Made by a program: the position numbers and the translations under genes
From: Oscillospiraceae bacterium
GTDB taxonomy: Bacteria; Bacillota; Clostridia; Oscillospirales; Ruminococcaceae
DNA: 12,797 bases
Direction: 5' to 3'
NCBI GenBank assembly: GCA_015067375.1
Contig: SVMQ01000037.1
Location: 1-12,797, forward strand
In this document: positions 2,630 through 11,235 of the stretch, piece by piece
Layout of the letters: each line of letters starts with the position of its first letter
How positions within the stretch are numbered: the stretch's first letter is position 1
The notes under the pieces: generated by a model
Seen by the model: only the letters and a program-made list of their open reading frames with translations
Told to the model about the DNA's origin: nothing
Databases searched by the model: none

Positions 2630-4192
2630 GTGAAACTTAAAAAGTGCTTGTCCGCTATTACAGCAGGGGCAGTTACAATATCCGCAATTGCAGTTGCACA
2701 GTTCGTTTCCGCTGATGGCGGTGTTGACGCCGCTGCAGCCGAGGCATTCTGGGGCAGCGATTACAACATGGCAGAAACTCAGGCAACCGAGTTTACATAT
2801 CACTTTGACGAAAACTTAGGCGGTATCGTCGTTACCGATTATCTCGGCAGCGAGCCTAAGGTAAGGATCCCCGAGCAGATCGACGGAAGCCCTGTGCTTG
2901 AAGTGGATCTCAGTGCTTGTATGTACAATTTCAAGGCTCTTATGATTCCCGACACAGCAAACGAAGTCAGCCTTGCTACCTACAACTCGCTGTTAGAGTA
3001 CTACAAGACCTATGCAGCTGCTCCCATCACCGACTTTGAGTTCTATTATGATAAGGAGATCAAGGGCGTAGTTATCACCGACTACAAGAAGGATTCTCCT
3101 ATCGTAAAGATCCCCGAAAAGGTTAAGATGATCGATGTAAATGATTCCTCCAAGGTTTCCGAATACACAGTTAAGAAGATCGATCTCACAGATTCCAAAA
3201 AGGAATTCAAGGCGCTCGTAGTTCCTGATGCCGATGAGATCATCGTCCCCAATCATGAAGATGTGACGATCTGTATTGCTCACCTTAACTCTACAGTTAA
3301 CAGATCCAGCTCCGGTAAGGATGTTTCCAAGTATCCCTACACCAACATCGGCGTAGAGAAGGTAAATGTCCCCGCTGAACTGGACGAGGTGGATACAGGT
3401 GTGTTCTCGGGATGCATGATAAGAGATGTTTACATCCCCGACTCACATTCCGATATCGGCAAATGGGCATTCAGCGATTGCTATATGCTGGCTAATGTTA
3501 CCATCGGCAGTCAGGATGCGATCATCGACGACGGAGCATTCCGCAACTGCTATGCTCTTAAATCTGTGAATATCGTCAACATCAATTCCATTGGCGAATG
3601 GGCATTCAGCGGCTGTGCAAATCTTACAGATGTGACACTCTCGGATGACCTCACAACAATTGGCAAGGGTGCATTCAGCCGTTGCCTTGCTATTGAAAAT
3701 ATCACTATCCCCGCAAGCGTTGAAACCATCGGCACCTATGCATTCAACGGCTGTGAGTCTTTGCAGACCATTACAGTAGCCGAGGGTAACAATGATTATG
3801 TTACCACTGAAGATGGTGTACTGTTCAACGCAGACATGACAGAACTGCTCAGAGTGCCTGAGGGCACGAGCATCTCTCAGTACACCATACCCGATTCTGT
3901 ATCGTATATCGCAAACAGTGCTTTCCGCAATTGCGATCTGGATGAAATAATCATCCCTGAGGGAGTTTCTCAGATCGACAACAGTGCATTTGAAAACTGT
4001 GGCTGCGGCACTGTAAAAGCGCCTCTCATACTCCCCGATTCCATCAGCACCGTTGAGCCCGGCGCATTTGAAGGCTGCTCTGTTATCAATTACAAGGGTA
4101 CTGTATATAAATCAAAGTCCTCTACAGATGAATACGATATGTCAAAAACTTTCACAGATCTGTATGTCGATATCAACACCGCTCTCTTCTGA
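2630..4192 (+). CDS. Secreted BspA-type leucine-rich repeat (LRR_5) protein
   Basis: The 520-residue protein starts at GTG 2630, 7 nt after GGAGG (2618-2622). Residues 1-28 form a Sec signal peptide with a basic start, a hydrophobic core and a probable cleavage after VSA. Residues about 53-115 and 134-205 are two related units, each starting with an aromatic-acidic strand and a G-I/V-V-V/I-TDY motif and later carrying FKALM/VIPD or FKALVVPD. From about residue 240 to 500 there are nine LRR_5 units with the signature AF-x-x-C (for example AFSDC, AFRNC, AFNGC) and I-P-D/E/A segments, as in BspA and TpLRR surface proteins. These usually mediate binding to proteins, cells or fibre. No LPXTG, SLH, dockerin or C-terminal anchor is visible, so the protein may be released or held non-covalently. 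Confidence 0.9.
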   Translation: MKLKKCLSAITAGAVTISAIAVAQFVSADGGVDAAAAEAFWGSDYNMAETQATEFTYHFDENLGGIVVTDYLGSEPKVRIPEQIDGSPVLEVDLSACMYNFKALMIPDTANEVSLATYNSLLEYYKTYAAAPITDFEFYYDKEIKGVVITDYKKDSPIVKIPEKVKMIDVNDSSKVSEYTVKKIDLTDSKKEFKALVVPDADEIIVPNHEDVTICIAHLNSTVNRSSSGKDVSKYPYTNIGVEKVNVPAELDEVDTGVFSGCMIRDVYIPDSHSDIGKWAFSDCYMLANVTIGSQDAIIDDGAFRNCYALKSVNIVNINSIGEWAFSGCANLTDVTLSDDLTTIGKGAFSRCLAIENITIPASVETIGTYAFNGCESLQTITVAEGNNDYVTTEDGVLFNADMTELLRVPEGTSISQYTIPDSVSYIANSAFRNCDLDEIIIPEGVSQIDNSAFENCGCGTVKAPLILPDSISTVEPGAFEGCSVINYKGTVYKSKSSTDEYDMSKTFTDLYVDINTALF

Positions 4193-5675: not shown

Positions 5676-5737
5676 AACAAATAACAATGACCGCACGGGC
5701 GCGCCCCAAATTTCGGCGCGCTGTGCGGTTATTTGTT
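5676..5737 (+). terminator. Large hairpin after metK, probable terminator
   Basis: A GC-rich stem pairs CCGCAC-GG-GCGCGCC (5691-5705) with GGCGCGC-T-GTGCGG (5715-5728), with one small internal loop. AACAAATAA (5676-5684) pairs with TTATTTGTT (5729-5737) outside it, leaving a 6-nt bulge on the left. The 3' side is T-rich but has no clean T run, so efficiency is uncertain. Confidence 0.6.
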
Positions 5738-5785
5738 ATGTTAGCCAAAAAAACAAAAAAAATATGTCTATTTTTTAGAAATTGC

Positions 5786-5795
5786 GCGTTAACGC
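5786..5795. promoter_or_regulatory. Palindrome abutting the pilZ -35 box, possible operator
   Basis: GCGTTAACGC is a perfect 10-bp palindrome that ends directly before the -35 hexamer at 5796. Its position fits a repressor or activator site. No known regulator is recognised. Confidence 0.35.
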
Positions 5796-5824
5796 TTGAT
5801 TTATTTGCCTTGATATTGTATAAT
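5796..5824 (+). promoter_or_regulatory. SigA promoter of the pilZ/GGDEF cluster
   Basis: TTGATT (5796-5801) and TATAAT (5819-5824) are separated by 17 bp. The start would be near 5831. This argues for the pilZ start at 5903 rather than at the ATG at 5687, and it is the only convincing promoter I see before the parA-AT-hook genes. Confidence 0.75.
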
Positions 5825-5840
5825 ATAGTGAGAACTATTC

Positions 5841-5876
5841 TGCCATATTGCGCGATTTTTAAGGTAAAATATGGCA
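5841..5876 (+). promoter_or_regulatory. 5'-leader hairpin of pilZ
   Basis: TGCCATATT (5841-5849) pairs perfectly with AATATGGCA (5868-5876) over 9 bp with an 18-nt loop, in the predicted leader and 17 nt before the Shine-Dalgarno. No known riboswitch core (for example GEMM) is seen. Confidence 0.35.
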
Positions 5877-5902
5877 TTGATAAATATATAGATAAGGATT
5901 TG

Positions 5903-6583
5903 ATGCTTTTGTTTTTTGGTAATAAGATCGTAAAAGTAGAAATCCTGGATAGAAACGGAACCGTAGCGGTGACGTCTGATAAGAATTTCGTTTTCCCGAA
6001 AAATATAGAGAGCGATGAGGATAGTATACTTATAATAAAGGGTACTGACCTGAAAGAATTCACCAAGGATGAGCGAGTCCATGTGATCTCTACGACCAAA
6101 GCGGGAGATAGAATAAAGTATCCGGGAATGGTCACTGTATCTCTCAACACGCAGCTGAATGTCAGGATAATAAAAAGCCATGACACTGAGGTCTTGCAGG
6201 AACGCAGAAGATACTTCAAGATCAAAGTGTTTGAGCGCGGAAGAGTGCTCTTTATGGTAAGGGACGATGAAACGACCCGATTTGAAGAGCCTGTACCTAT
6301 GGAGATCAACGATATAAACATAGGCGGTATCTTCATGGTGACCAGCATTCCGTTGCAGCAGGACGATATAGTATGTATCGATGTAGATCTGTTCATCGAC
6401 TACAGACTTAATGCTGTGGCACGCGTATTGCGTGTGCAAAGGAATCCTGATGGCTCAATCAAAGGCTATGGATGTGCATTCCAGGGGCTTACCGCCTCGC
6501 AGGAGGACTATATCGGCAAATATATTTATAAAGTCCAGTCAGCACAGCGCCAAAAAGAAATTGCAAAAGAACGACCGTTCTGA
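5903..6583 (+). CDS. PilZ-domain protein, YcgR/DgrA-like c-di-GMP receptor
   Basis: From ATG 5903 (AAGGA 4 nt upstream, a short spacing) the protein has 226 residues. The first ~95 residues resemble the YcgR-like N-terminal beta domain found before PilZ in clostridial flagellar-brake or motility proteins. The PilZ domain runs from about 100 to 215. The c-di-GMP arginine motif is RRRYFK (101-106), so the second Arg of RxxxR is a Lys. The second motif is D137-I-N139-I-G-G142, matching DxSxxG with Asn for Ser. Upstream in-frame starts (5687) fall inside the metK terminator and before the promoter, so they were rejected. The next gene is a diguanylate cyclase 51 bp downstream, supporting a c-di-GMP role. 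The output partner is unknown. Confidence 0.85.
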   Translation: MLLFFGNKIVKVEILDRNGTVAVTSDKNFVFPKNIESDEDSILIIKGTDLKEFTKDERVHVISTTKAGDRIKYPGMVTVSLNTQLNVRIIKSHDTEVLQERRRYFKIKVFERGRVLFMVRDDETTRFEEPVPMEINDINIGGIFMVTSIPLQQDDIVCIDVDLFIDYRLNAVARVLRVQRNPDGSIKGYGCAFQGLTASQEDYIGKYIYKVQSAQRQKEIAKERPF

Positions 6584-6634: not shown

Positions 6635-8644
6635 ATGAGTAACGCAAAACTTAAAGTCATTCTGACAGCGATATTACTGGTCTTCGCGATCGTACCCGCG
6701 CTTATTATCGGCGCTGTTGGTACGTTCTCGATCGTCGGCTATGAGAGCAACACGAAAACTGACACGCTTAAAACGGTGTCCAGATCAAAATCCATAGCTC
6801 TGGATCAGGCTTTCACGCATTATGTGAGCAATGTAAATATGCTTGCAACATCCGATCTTCTTATTGACGCTGTCGATTCCACCGATGAAGCTCATGCAAA
6901 CAGCATCCTTGCTGCTGTTGCTGATGCAAATCCCGATATTCTGGATATCATAGTTATCAATGCTAACGGTAACGTTATCGCTTCGGCAAAGCAGGTCAAT
7001 ATCGGTGGCACCTTTGAGCATTTTGACGAAACACTTTCTCCCGTTTCGGGCATCCGTTCATGGAGCAGCTACAACAATGCACAGGCATTCTATGTTTCTA
7101 AGGAGATCTTCGAAAACCCCACAGGTCTGACAGGCTCTCTCGGTCATGTATGTGCTATCGTTTCTGTTGGTGCAGACAGCAGGATCGCAAAGGCTCTCAA
7201 CGGAACATTCCTTGACAGCGGCCGTATGATCGCATTCGATACATCAGGCAATGTTATCAATTTCGGCGGAGATATGGCAGTTACAACAGCTGACCCCGAT
7301 ATTGCACAGGATCTTCAGGAGATCGTAGCTTCCACAAGCAATGTAAATATCACCTCCCTAAGACAGGAACTTTCCACAGGCAAGTTTGATAAGTATACAT
7401 ACTGCGCAGGCATCATCCCCCAGATCAATACATGGAGATGGGCCGGTATCGTTGAATCCGGTTCTATCGGCTCTTTCGCATTAAAGACAAATCTCATTTG
7501 CTGGGGCGTTGTACTTGTATCCTGTGCGCTGGCAGCTCTTGTTGGTTGGCTGATAGTAAACAAGTTTACAGGAAATATGTCTGAGATGCTCCGCACTATG
7601 GACGCTATCGCTGAAGAAGAGAACGGATATGAGATCCGCTTCAAGATCAAGAACAGAAAGAGTGAGCTTGGTCGTATCAAGGACGCATTCAACGATATGC
7701 TGGATGAGGTCATCATGAGCGAGGAGCGTCACCGCACCATCGCAGAGCTGTCCGACAATATGCTGTTCGAGTGGGACTTCCACAAGGAGAGTATGTATGT
7801 TTCCAAGAACACACTTGCAAAGTTTGAGATAGACACCGCAAACTCCACCCTCTCCAACGGTAGATTTATCGACGCTCTCATGAGCACGGATGACGCTGAA
7901 AAGTATAAGAGAGATATCAGCCAGCTGCTGCGTGACAAGAACGGATACAGCGCTGAATATCAGCTCAAGGCTAAGTCAGGTACAGTCATCTGGGTATCCC
8001 TTCGTGCAGTCTGCATCACAGACCGTCTTGGCGAGCCGCTGAGAGTTATCGGCGTCATGACTGATATCGACAATGAGAAGAAGATGGAGCTTCAGCTCTC
8101 CGAGCGTGCAAGCTTTGACTTCCTCTCCCAGCTGTACAACAGAAACACATTCACCAGAACACTTACTGCAGAGCTTGAGCGCCGCGGTGCTAACAAGATC
8201 GCACTTCTGTTCATCGACGTTGACGACTTTAAGTTCATCAACGACAGATATGGTCACACCATCGGTGACGAGGTCATCAAGTATGTTGCCGACACCATCC
8301 GCGTTAAGGTTGACGACAAGGGCGGCTTCGCCGGACGCTTCGGCGGCGACGAGTTCGTTCTGTGCTTCACCGATCAGGAGGATATCGAGAACATCGAGAA
8401 CATCTCCATGGATATCATCAACGAGCTGTATGTCGGCTATACAACATCTGACGGCAGCATGACCATCAATGTAAAGGCAAGTATCGGTATCGCACTCTGT
8501 CCCGAGCATTCTGAGGACGTAAACGAGCTGCTGATGTTCTCCGATACAGCAATGTACTTCGTTAAGAAGAACGGTAAGACCAACTATCATATGTACTGCC
8601 CCGAAGATACAGAGTCCGGCGAGTACATCGACCCCGAGTTCTGA
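6635..8644 (+). CDS. Membrane diguanylate cyclase: dCache-HAMP-PAS-GGDEF
   Basis: The 669-residue enzyme makes c-di-GMP from two GTP at the inner face of the membrane. It has TM1 at about 7-32, an extracellular sensor of about 250 residues resembling a dCache domain, TM2 at about 286-309, a HAMP-like linker to about 360, a PAS domain with PAC at about 365-485, and a C-terminal GGDEF domain. The metal/substrate region FIDVDDFKFINDRYGH and the active-site loop GGDEF (570-574) are intact. The inhibitory I-site (RxxD, starting nine residues before GGDEF) is replaced by DKGG, so canonical product inhibition is not expected. AGGGGGA lies 10 nt before the ATG. It is probably co-transcribed with pilZ. 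The sensor ligand is unknown, and no EAL or HD-GYP hydrolase is seen in the window. Confidence 0.95.
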   Translation: MSNAKLKVILTAILLVFAIVPALIIGAVGTFSIVGYESNTKTDTLKTVSRSKSIALDQAFTHYVSNVNMLATSDLLIDAVDSTDEAHANSILAAVADANPDILDIIVINANGNVIASAKQVNIGGTFEHFDETLSPVSGIRSWSSYNNAQAFYVSKEIFENPTGLTGSLGHVCAIVSVGADSRIAKALNGTFLDSGRMIAFDTSGNVINFGGDMAVTTADPDIAQDLQEIVASTSNVNITSLRQELSTGKFDKYTYCAGIIPQINTWRWAGIVESGSIGSFALKTNLICWGVVLVSCALAALVGWLIVNKFTGNMSEMLRTMDAIAEEENGYEIRFKIKNRKSELGRIKDAFNDMLDEVIMSEERHRTIAELSDNMLFEWDFHKESMYVSKNTLAKFEIDTANSTLSNGRFIDALMSTDDAEKYKRDISQLLRDKNGYSAEYQLKAKSGTVIWVSLRAVCITDRLGEPLRVIGVMTDIDNEKKMELQLSERASFDFLSQLYNRNTFTRTLTAELERRGANKIALLFIDVDDFKFINDRYGHTIGDEVIKYVADTIRVKVDDKGGFAGRFGGDEFVLCFTDQEDIENIENISMDIINELYVGYTTSDGSMTINVKASIGIALCPEHSEDVNELLMFSDTAMYFVKKNGKTNYHMYCPEDTESGEYIDPEF

Positions 8645-8786: not shown

Positions 8787-9560
8787 TTGGCAAAGGTTAT
8801 TGCTATTACCAATCAAAAAGGCGGCGTGGGCAAAACCACGACCTGCTGCGGACTTTGCGGCGGTCTGGTGCAGCGCGGCTATAAGGTGCTTGCCATCGAC
8901 CTTGACCCACAGGGCAATCTCAGCTTCAGCCTTGGCGTAGAGGCAGACGATAACTTCACCGTATACGATCTGTTCAAAGGCAATTGCGGCATAAGCGACG
9001 CTATACTGACAGGCGGCGTTTGCGATGTTATACCATCCAATATTCTGCTCTCAGGCGTAGAGCTGGAGCTTACAGGAGTGGGTCGTGAGTATGTTCTTCG
9101 TGAGCAGCTCGAGGAGATCAAAGATCAATATGACTACATAATCCTCGATACTCCACCTGCATTGTCCGTTCTTACCATCAACGCCTACACAGCTTCTGAC
9201 GAGCTTATCATCCCCATGCTGTGTGAGATACTCAGCCTGCAGGGTATAGCTCAGCTCAAACAGACTATCTTCGCTGTACAGCGCTACTACAACAAGGCGC
9301 TCAAGGTGCGCGGCATACTGCTCAATAAATATAATTCACGACTTACCCTGACAAAAGAGGTCGAGGAGCTTGCTCAGATGATCGCTGAACAGCTGGATAC
9401 AGAGATATTCGCAAGCAGGATAAGCACCAGCGTATGTATAGCAGAGGCACCTGCACACGGCGAATCTGTCATGACCTATTCGCCTAAATCCAAGGCAGCC
9501 AAGGAGTTTGACGCTTTCATTGATGAACTTACAGGTACTAAGAAAAAAGGAAAGAAATAA
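8787..9560 (+). CDS. parA: ParA/Soj-family ATPase (partition or positioning ATPase)
   Basis: ParA ATPases bind DNA non-specifically as ATP dimers and form gradients that move chromosomes, plasmids or protein cargo. The start is TTG 8787, because GGAGG (8774-8778) is 8 nt upstream. An in-frame TTG at 8754 lacks such a site and falls in a hairpin. The 257 residues carry the deviant Walker A KGGVGKTT (11-18) with signature Lys11, the Walker A' segment AIDLDPQGN near residue 40, and the Walker B-like YIILDTPPA near 125. There is no N-terminal HTH, so it is of the small Soj/type Ib kind. No ParB gene follows. Instead the next ORF, starting at the base after the stop codon, encodes an AT-hook/ComFB-like protein. 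The gene symbol is a family-level name. Confidence 0.92.
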   Translation: MAKVIAITNQKGGVGKTTTCCGLCGGLVQRGYKVLAIDLDPQGNLSFSLGVEADDNFTVYDLFKGNCGISDAILTGGVCDVIPSNILLSGVELELTGVGREYVLREQLEEIKDQYDYIILDTPPALSVLTINAYTASDELIIPMLCEILSLQGIAQLKQTIFAVQRYYNKALKVRGILLNKYNSRLTLTKEVEELAQMIAEQLDTEIFASRISTSVCIAEAPAHGESVMTYSPKSKAAKEFDAFIDELTGTKKKGKK

Positions 9561-10400
9561 ATGAGTGGCAGAAAAACCGAAACCACTGAGATGGAGCTTA
9601 CTCCTGCAACAGCGCCCCGAAAACGCGGAAGACCGCGTAAGGTGCCTGTGGCTGAAACGGCTGAAACAAAACCCGCTGTAACCGAGCAGCCAAAACGCCG
9701 TCAAAGCCGCACTGCTCAGAATACAGAAGAAACAAAGTCTGTAAAAAAGCCAGCCGTTACAAAATCAGAAACTGACAGCAACACAATATCCGCTCCAAAA
9801 AAACGCGGCAGACCACGCAAAGTGCCTGAGGCAGAGGCAGAAAAAACGAACACCCCTACCTCAGAACAAAAGCCTGAAGCTACGCTGAATACTCAGAAAA
9901 AAACGCGCAAGTCCACGACAAAGCAAGCCAAGCCTCAGGATGCGACCATTGGCGATATCAGCAGCAAAACGCCGCAGGTAATGCGCCTTGTTCAGCAGGG
10001 CAATGATATGGTAAACCCTACTATCATGGCAGGCAAGAGCAGCATACCACGCAAGCTCAGGGGTCTTGAGCCGCTGACAAAGATAATGAAACGTGAAGCT
10101 GAAGAGATCTTTGGTACTGACCAGGAGGATGAAACATTCAATCTCACCGCGCTTGTTATAGACGACAATGCCGCCGAGATACTCCGACGTTTTAACGCGT
10201 GCGATTGCGAGATATGCGTAGAGCAGCTGTCAAGGCTAACCGCGGATATAGTTCCTGCAAGATTTGCAAAGCTGAAAAGGCGTGCGGTCGAGCGCAACAC
10301 CCCCGAAGTGGAAGAGCTGAAGGCGCCTCTTCGCAGAAGCGTTACCTCTCAAATGATACGACTGGTTATTCAGAACAAAAAGAGAAGCTATCACGATTAG
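9561..10400 (+). CDS. AT-hook protein with C-terminal ComFB-like domain
   Basis: The 279-residue protein starts with ATG 9561 directly after the parA stop, with AAGGAAAG in the parA tail, so translation is probably coupled. Residues 1-130 are basic, low-complexity and likely disordered. They hold two near-identical AT-hooks, KRGRPRKVP at 21-29 and 81-89, with cores RGRP at 22-25 and 82-85, which should bind the minor groove of AT-rich DNA. A further basic patch lies near 112-125. Residues about 190-275 resemble the ComFB family: a helix before C214-D-C216-E-I-C219, then a helix, then the P-A-R-F segment (232-235) where ComFB proteins have P-x-R-Y, then a C-terminal helix. ComFB was named from a B. 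subtilis competence operon and, as I recall, cyanobacterial ComFB proteins bind c-di-GMP. The domain call is from motif memory only. Confidence 0.7.
   Translation: MSGRKTETTEMELTPATAPRKRGRPRKVPVAETAETKPAVTEQPKRRQSRTAQNTEETKSVKKPAVTKSETDSNTISAPKKRGRPRKVPEAEAEKTNTPTSEQKPEATLNTQKKTRKSTTKQAKPQDATIGDISSKTPQVMRLVQQGNDMVNPTIMAGKSSIPRKLRGLEPLTKIMKREAEEIFGTDQEDETFNLTALVIDDNAAEILRRFNACDCEICVEQLSRLTADIVPARFAKLKRRAVERNTPEVEELKAPLRRSVTSQMIRLVIQNKKRSYHD
9612..9653 (+). repeat. AT-hook coding repeat, copy 1
   Basis: These fourteen codons encode residues 18-31 with an RGRP core. They correspond to 9792-9833, exactly 180 nt (60 codons) downstream, and 12 of 14 residues are the same. Confidence 0.85.
9792..9833 (+). 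repeat. AT-hook coding repeat, copy 2
   Basis: This is the second copy (residues 78-91) of the AT-hook module. Synonymous sites have drifted relative to copy 1 while the protein sequence is kept, suggesting selection on both hooks. Confidence 0.85.
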
Positions 10401-10470: not shown

Positions 10471-11235
10471 CTAGAACAAAACCTTGGCCAAAAATATCAG
10501 CACCAGATGCAAAGGATAAAACAGATAGAAAAACCACTTCGCAAGTACAGGATGCCTGCCCTTTTCTCCGTTGTAAAATTTACTTATAACAAAATAGGCT
10601 GCAAGGCAGGCAAGCGTCTGTATGATGAATATCGCAGCTGTCCAGCCCCAGCCCGAAAAGGCGAGAATGCCGCTGACAGTCTGCATGGTAAGCACTATAC
10701 CTAAGAAAGCTAAAAAACGCTTTTTCGGATCATCCTTCAGATGATACAACACAAGCATAATAGGAATACCAAATATCATCCATTCCGAGCTGATAAGCAC
10801 AGTCGCTGCATCCAGCAGAAGGATGATAATTATCCTGACGGGCTTTTTCAGCTTTGATTCTGACACCATAAGCGCAATCAGGCCTATCAGCAAGGTGAAG
10901 ATAATGTTCAACGGACTGAAAAAAGACCATGTCAGCAGCGTCCCCTCATTTGCAAGAACGAAAGGTATCTGTGTTATCACCGCAAACAGCAAAAGCCGCA
11001 GGGCGTACTTTTTTCGGGAATGTGTGTATCGGAAGCCCTCTGCTATAAAGAAAAAGAATATCGGCGGCGCAAACATGGACAATTGTATCAGCAGGAATAC
11101 TATTAACGGCATATCCGCATACATAGTACCCTCAGTAAGATACGAACAGAAATGTCCGATAGTCATTGGTATGATTGCAAGAAATTTAAGCATATCACGG
11201 TCTATCACCTTGTAATCTTTCTTCGTACTATCCAT
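10471..11235 (-). CDS. TraX-family multispanning membrane protein
   Basis: The 254-residue protein has about seven or eight hydrophobic segments and a short hydrophilic N-terminus. It shows the TraX family (PF05857) landmarks: DMLKFLAIIPMTIGHF near residues 14-29, where most members have LK-x-x-A-x-x-x-M-x-x-DH, and the C-terminal FFYLFYPLHL. F-plasmid TraX acetylates the N-terminus of pilin. Chromosomal members in Firmicutes are of unproven function, likely membrane acyltransferases. The Asp of the common DH is Gly here. The ATG at 11235 has AAGGAGG about 6 nt upstream. It is a single-gene unit with its own promoter and terminator, convergent with the AT-hook gene, and there are no conjugation genes around it. 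Confidence 0.85.
   Translation of the reverse strand: MDSTKKDYKVIDRDMLKFLAIIPMTIGHFCSYLTEGTMYADMPLIVFLLIQLSMFAPPIFFFFIAEGFRYTHSRKKYALRLLLFAVITQIPFVLANEGTLLTWSFFSPLNIIFTLLIGLIALMVSESKLKKPVRIIIILLLDAATVLISSEWMIFGIPIMLVLYHLKDDPKKRFLAFLGIVLTMQTVSGILAFSGWGWTAAIFIIQTLACLAAYFVISKFYNGEKGRHPVLAKWFFYLFYPLHLVLIFLAKVLF

Follow-up and report, generated by a model that had tools for sequence, protein, structure and literature searches.

Known systems and the locus under study

Partner proteins of orphan ParA/MinD ATPases, as in McdAB, PomXZ, ParC and PpfA-TlpT, carry a positively charged N-terminus, according to excerpts of PMC10241942, PMC13170346 and PMC9178275. The zinc ligands of ComFB are given in an excerpt of PMC4381287 as a CxCxxC motif together with a distal Cys or His. 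ComFB of Synechocystis binds cyclic diadenosine monophosphate (c-di-AMP) and cyclic diguanosine monophosphate (c-di-GMP) (PMC12313861, excerpt), and CdgR, a ComFB homologue, sets the cell size of Anabaena through c-di-GMP (PMC13075795, excerpt). We analysed a DNA stretch of 12,797 nucleotides, hereafter the window, from an Oscillospiraceae bacterium (assembly GCA_015067375.1, contig SVMQ01000037.1). The window harbours the gene of an orphan ParA ATPase (8787..9560, plus strand), directly followed by the gene of a partner protein of 279 amino acids (9561..10400, plus strand), which consists of a basic low-complexity arm and a ComFB-fold domain. Both genes form a real ParA-partner pair, conserved among a group of gut bacteria, within the known class of orphan ParA positioning systems. 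On balance, we favour the partner as a dedicated adaptor and probable ATPase activator of this ParA, in a c-di-GMP context. A ParA partner of this build was not found in the literature searched.

Conservation and joint absence of the pair

A scan of named genome contigs yielded 33 further loci, each titled as a metagenome-assembled genome of Oscillospiraceae, Ruminococcaceae or uncultured Clostridia. When queried with the proteins of the window, all 34 loci, the window included, contained ParA and the partner together. The gene order PilZ, GGDEF, ParA, partner was found in 32 of them, and the contigs of the other two begin inside parA. Among 61 genomes searched, a partner orthologue was detected in 31 of the 37 genomes of the same genus, including that of the window, and in none of the 24 genomes of other families; a frame of 100 amino acids in G018 was not counted. 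A profile was built from the C-terminal alignment A1 (29 rows; L023, with undetermined bases, and G022, with no locus, were left out) and compared with an even sample of 295 genomes from the order. Six genomes matched: the window's own; G255, G144 and G103, which belong to a different genus of the family; and G235 and G117, from other families. All three genomes of the other genus possess the four genes PilZ, GGDEF, ParA and partner. G103 matched the profile only through a short stand-alone ComFB, and its partner was identified by position and a KTKHVMDLV stretch only.

In four congeners (G002, G005, G007 and G009; 96-99% complete) no close counterpart of this ParA is present; the best match is Soj-like and 36-37% identical. 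Genome-wide searches of these four detected no orthologue of PilZ or of the partner. The corresponding loci (L110-L113) also lack PilZ, ParA and partner, but retain a GGDEF protein, 52-53% identical, with a pseudouridine synthase gene before it and MreB/Mbl directly after it, as in intact loci. PilZ, ParA and partner are missing as a trio, and the cyclase and MreB persist; the four genomes may share one loss. G028, whose contig ends inside the GGDEF gene, and G018, which is 73% complete, were uninformative in this respect. The tight pairing with ParA claimed in a first-pass annotation of this DNA is in agreement with the joint presence in every locus and the joint absence in four genomes.

The parA gene (PF13614, E 7.6e-57) most likely starts at TTG 8787, and its TAA stop occupies 9558-9560. 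The ATG of the partner at 9561 is the next base, so the gap is zero, as the same annotation had stated. In 21 of the 32 readable loci both genes overlap by ATGA (gap -4), which fits translational coupling, and the zero gap is a variant of this overlap. Zero gaps were found in three loci, including the window, and the widest gap (99 bases) in one; the start codon nearest to the parA stop was taken, which biases these counts towards short gaps. L101 and L102, in which ParA is cut, were left out of the gap and ParA-tail counts.

ComFB-like domain of the partner

The C-terminal domain (10137..10397, plus strand) contains CDCEIC at residues 214-219 and PARF at 232-235, in agreement with the CxCxxC and P-x-R-F motifs noticed in the first-pass annotation. 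C214, C216 and C219, with the near-terminal H278 as fourth ligand, form a putative zinc site, and this Cys3His arrangement is present in 29/29 relatives of alignment A1. The domain family matches ComFB by profile comparison (E 2.7e-10), and the best structural matches of the domain are ComFB (4WAI) and CdgR with c-di-GMP. On these profile and structural comparisons the domain is a divergent ComFB fold. The predicted ComFB-like domain is thereby upheld; a lack of structural resemblance to ComFB, which the annotation had named as speaking against it, did not occur. The equivalents of ComFB N4 and E7 are found in 23/29 and 20/29 relatives, respectively, and the window protein possesses the N, not the E. 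For alignment A2, 19 of 31 ComFB proteins were used, leaving out L137, which has no motif match, and 11 proteins close to kept ones; its row account also names the ParA-paired L040 and L041.

N-terminal arm and conserved motifs

The arm of the window partner (9561..9965, plus strand) is basic and of low complexity, with 135 residues and a net charge of +14. Across the 34 loci arms range from 14 to 145 residues and from +2 to +20 in net charge, each being positive. No arm has an acidic residue at positions 2-5, and Lys or Arg occupies residue 3 in 19/34 and residue 4 in 24/34; for L101 a later Met was taken in the residue 2-5 count than in the arm-length count. Straight after the arm follows K/R-T-P-x-V-M-x-L, in which T, P, V, M and the L of the eighth position are invariant (29/29). 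In the window it reads as KTPxVMxLV (residues 136-144; 9966..9992, plus strand) and is proposed as a ParA-contact peptide. A second conserved linker motif, AGKSxxPxxLRGxEPLS, lies at 10029..10082 (plus strand). In L038, L039 and L046, which have hardly any arm, a KTPxVMxL-like stretch altered at P is located near the N-terminus. The partner of L046 keeps this stretch, has lost CxCxxC, and gave no ComFB match in a Pfam search. The partner thus contains a positively charged N-terminal peptide, as is typical of partners that activate the ParA ATPase. By analogy, a basic N-terminal arm plus KTPxVMxL is the build known for such partners, and by inference the activating peptide here would be the tip of the arm, KTPxVMxL or the two together.

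Two AT-hooks, which the first-pass annotation had placed at residues 22-25 and 82-85, were recovered as RGRP at both positions (9624..9635 and 9804..9815, plus strand), and the Pfam AT_hook model passes its cut-off over two stretches (18.9 against 17.4 bits). Shuffling the window arm 200,000 times produced at least two RGRP motifs once, and their presence is not expected from its composition. RGRP occurs in only two of the 34 arms, twice in the window and once in L073, so the hooks do not hold as the core of the design. Judged from these loci, they are nearly private to the species of the window, and the basic arm plus KTPxVMxL is the conserved part.

ParA protein

The ParA of the window is a small protein of 257 amino acids without N-terminal extension, with a deviant Walker A motif (KGGVGKT), a ParA domain and a basic C-terminal tail (KKKGKK). 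It is 37-38% identical to the Soj of the same genome. The PDB sequence set gave two entries named cobyrinic acid a,c-diamide synthase as its best matches, with a ParA family protein and Soj coming next. Basic residues of the PRNVR loop contact DNA in other ParAs (excerpts of PMC7229837 and PMC11229316), R221 and R224 of CcParA being the Soj-type contact residues (PMC7229837, excerpt). These arginines are absent here, the loop being STSVC-like with both basic positions uncharged in 36 of 37 ParAs by pattern and in L040 by eye. An Arg upstream of the loop is kept in 31/37 (5 His, 1 Lys), and of 32 ParA tails from the window's genus, 27 have a net positive charge over their last 25 residues. In L046, from another genus of the same family, the ParA C-terminal tail carries an AT-hook-like GRGRPRK (L046:2272-2331, plus strand), while the L046 partner has neither AT-hook nor CxCxxC; DNA-binding tags therefore arise on either member of the pair. 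PRNVR-type arginines are not universal in the ParA superfamily, as MipZ lacks them and binds DNA via other residues (PMC7229837, excerpt). For this reason a transfer of DNA affinity from the body of the ATPase to the tails of either protein is a speculative reading of the sequences.

Neighbouring genes

The first gene of the set encodes a PilZ-domain protein (5687..6583, plus strand; PF07238, E 1.1e-8), a possible c-di-GMP receptor, whose annotated start is doubtful; since relatives have about 228 amino acids, translation may begin at a more internal codon. It shows RRYFK and DINIGG for the PilZ motifs RxxxR and DxSxxG, and the second Arg of RxxxR is Lys in 26 of the 27 family members read. 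The following gene (6635..8644, plus strand) encodes a predicted membrane sensor diguanylate cyclase with Cache, HAMP, PAS and GGDEF domains (PF00990, E 1.9e-34); PAS_3 is above its cut-off, and the HAMP and dCache matches are below theirs. The GGDEF motif is intact in 32/32 cyclases, and the RxxD motif of the I-site is absent from all 32.

MreB/Mbl is encoded next after the partner in 26 of the 34 loci (PF06723, E 2.7e-128 for one member). It is absent beside the pair in the window, its three nearest relatives, L091 and L093, and the contigs of L078 and L079 run for less than 0.8 kb beyond the pair. The genome of the window possesses an MreB orthologue (86% identical) on another contig. At the position that MreB occupies in most relatives, the window encodes a TraX-family membrane protein (10471-11235, minus strand). 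In G255 the gene next after the pair encodes a methyl-accepting chemotaxis protein (MCP) (L038:141-1469, minus strand; PF00015, E 3.8e-40). The window also encodes a BspA-type leucine-rich repeat protein, possibly secreted (2630-4192, plus strand; PF13306, E 1.7e-53).

Proposed function and alternative explanations

Gene order, joint absence, the ComFB fold with its Cys3His site, the basic arm and KTPxVMxL are read from the sequences, and from them contact, ligand gating and cargo are inferred. If the partner is an adaptor and activator, ATP-bound ParA would bind the nucleoid, and the basic arm with KTPxVMxL would engage the ParA dimer and induce ATP hydrolysis. The ComFB-fold part would link ParA to a cargo or sense a cyclic dinucleotide, for which the co-encoded GGDEF enzyme could be the source and PilZ a parallel receptor. 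The AT-hooks would supply extra DNA affinity in the window lineage only. The make-up of the gene cluster suggests that c-di-GMP may control a system for positioning proteins, and both ligand binding and ParA contact by the partner are plausible. If the partner has a ligand, c-di-GMP appears the likeliest, because the cyclase and PilZ lie upstream wherever the contig permits a view, and because PilZ is absent from the loci without ParA and partner.

Some features set the partner apart from ComFB. The PF10719 search proposed in the first-pass annotation gave no match for the window partner or its domain, and reached E<=0.1 in only 8 of 29 A1 members (best 7.9e-4). The ComFB interface residues D33 and N40 are each found in 0/29 rows of A1, and the Y46 position is Y in 6/29. 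These lost residues are the main argument against c-di-GMP as ligand. We suggest only tentatively a ligand-gated ParA: the partner would sense c-di-GMP from the membrane cyclase and thereby control hydrolysis by ParA, and in this way a signal from outside the cell would set the site of a cargo on the nucleoid (chemoreceptors, MreB machinery or other).

The MreB and MCP neighbours suggest two cargo candidates, both compatible with the adaptor reading. ParA could place chemoreceptor clusters under c-di-GMP control, comparable to PpfA-TlpT or ParC, as would fit the MCP gene of G255 and the 14 MCP matches in the genome of the window; we regard this as unlikely, since the conserved downstream neighbour in the window's genus is MreB; MCPs were not sought at other loci. 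Control of cell shape or size, with ParA and partner acting together with the adjoining MreB in parallel to CdgR, would agree with that frequent neighbour and with the role of CdgR in Anabaena. It is rather improbable nonetheless, as MreB is not at the pair in the window and five other loci, and the four genomes without the pair retain it.

The DNA-binding features of the partner admit two further explanations. As a nucleoid-associated protein, it would bind AT-rich DNA through arm and AT-hooks, and ParA would be merely a co-expressed regulator of its distribution. The uniformly positive arms, two hooks improbable by chance and the hook on the L046 ParA tail are consistent with this, but the rarity of RGRP and arms as short as 14 residues, against a conserved C-terminal part, make it quite unlikely. 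The first-pass annotation had proposed that the partner replaces ParB. Its pairing with ParA and its DNA-binding motifs would suit a protein that takes over from ParB in partitioning chromosomes or plasmids; however, Pfam detects no ParB domain (ParB_N) in it, and four genomes live without the pair. The genome of the window, which also encodes a stand-alone ComFB, has its own soj-parB pair on contig C276. It has a second ParB on C168 (L032; contig 168 of G000), after two genes that look like mnmG and rsmG on visual inspection, the position in which Noc is usually encoded. Because of these two ParB proteins the replacement is not borne out, and we consider it highly improbable.

Comparison with known systems

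Orphan ParA proteins often lack known partners and cargos, and this locus offers, within a second-messenger gene set, a partner whose fold is recognisable as that of a receptor; the coupling of c-di-GMP to intracellular positioning is therefore directly testable. The locus also suggests a role of ComFB-type domains outside competence.

Similar to ParAB/Soj-Spo0J, the ParA of the window resembles Soj, but its partner shows no ParB domain and a separate soj-parB is present. With ComFB of Bacillus subtilis (PDB 4WAI, PF10719) the partner shares the helical fold, the zinc site of CxCxxC and a distant His/Cys, and the P-x-R/K-F/Y position. In contrast to ComFB, it adds a long basic arm and the KTPxVMxL segment in front, has D33, N40 and mostly Y46 replaced, lies in the window below Pfam detection, and is paired with ParA instead of comFA/comFC. 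The aligned stretch of CdgR (PDB 8HJA with c-di-GMP), a cyanobacterial ComFB homologue, has no Cys motif and retains DIAAxALNxLPPxY, a motif that is gone from the window family. McdAB, PomXZ, ParC and PpfA-TlpT, in the excerpts cited above, likewise pair a ParA ATPase with an unrelated protein that is dedicated to it and has a positive N-terminus, whereas the partner described here has a ComFB fold and is encoded together with PilZ and GGDEF genes.
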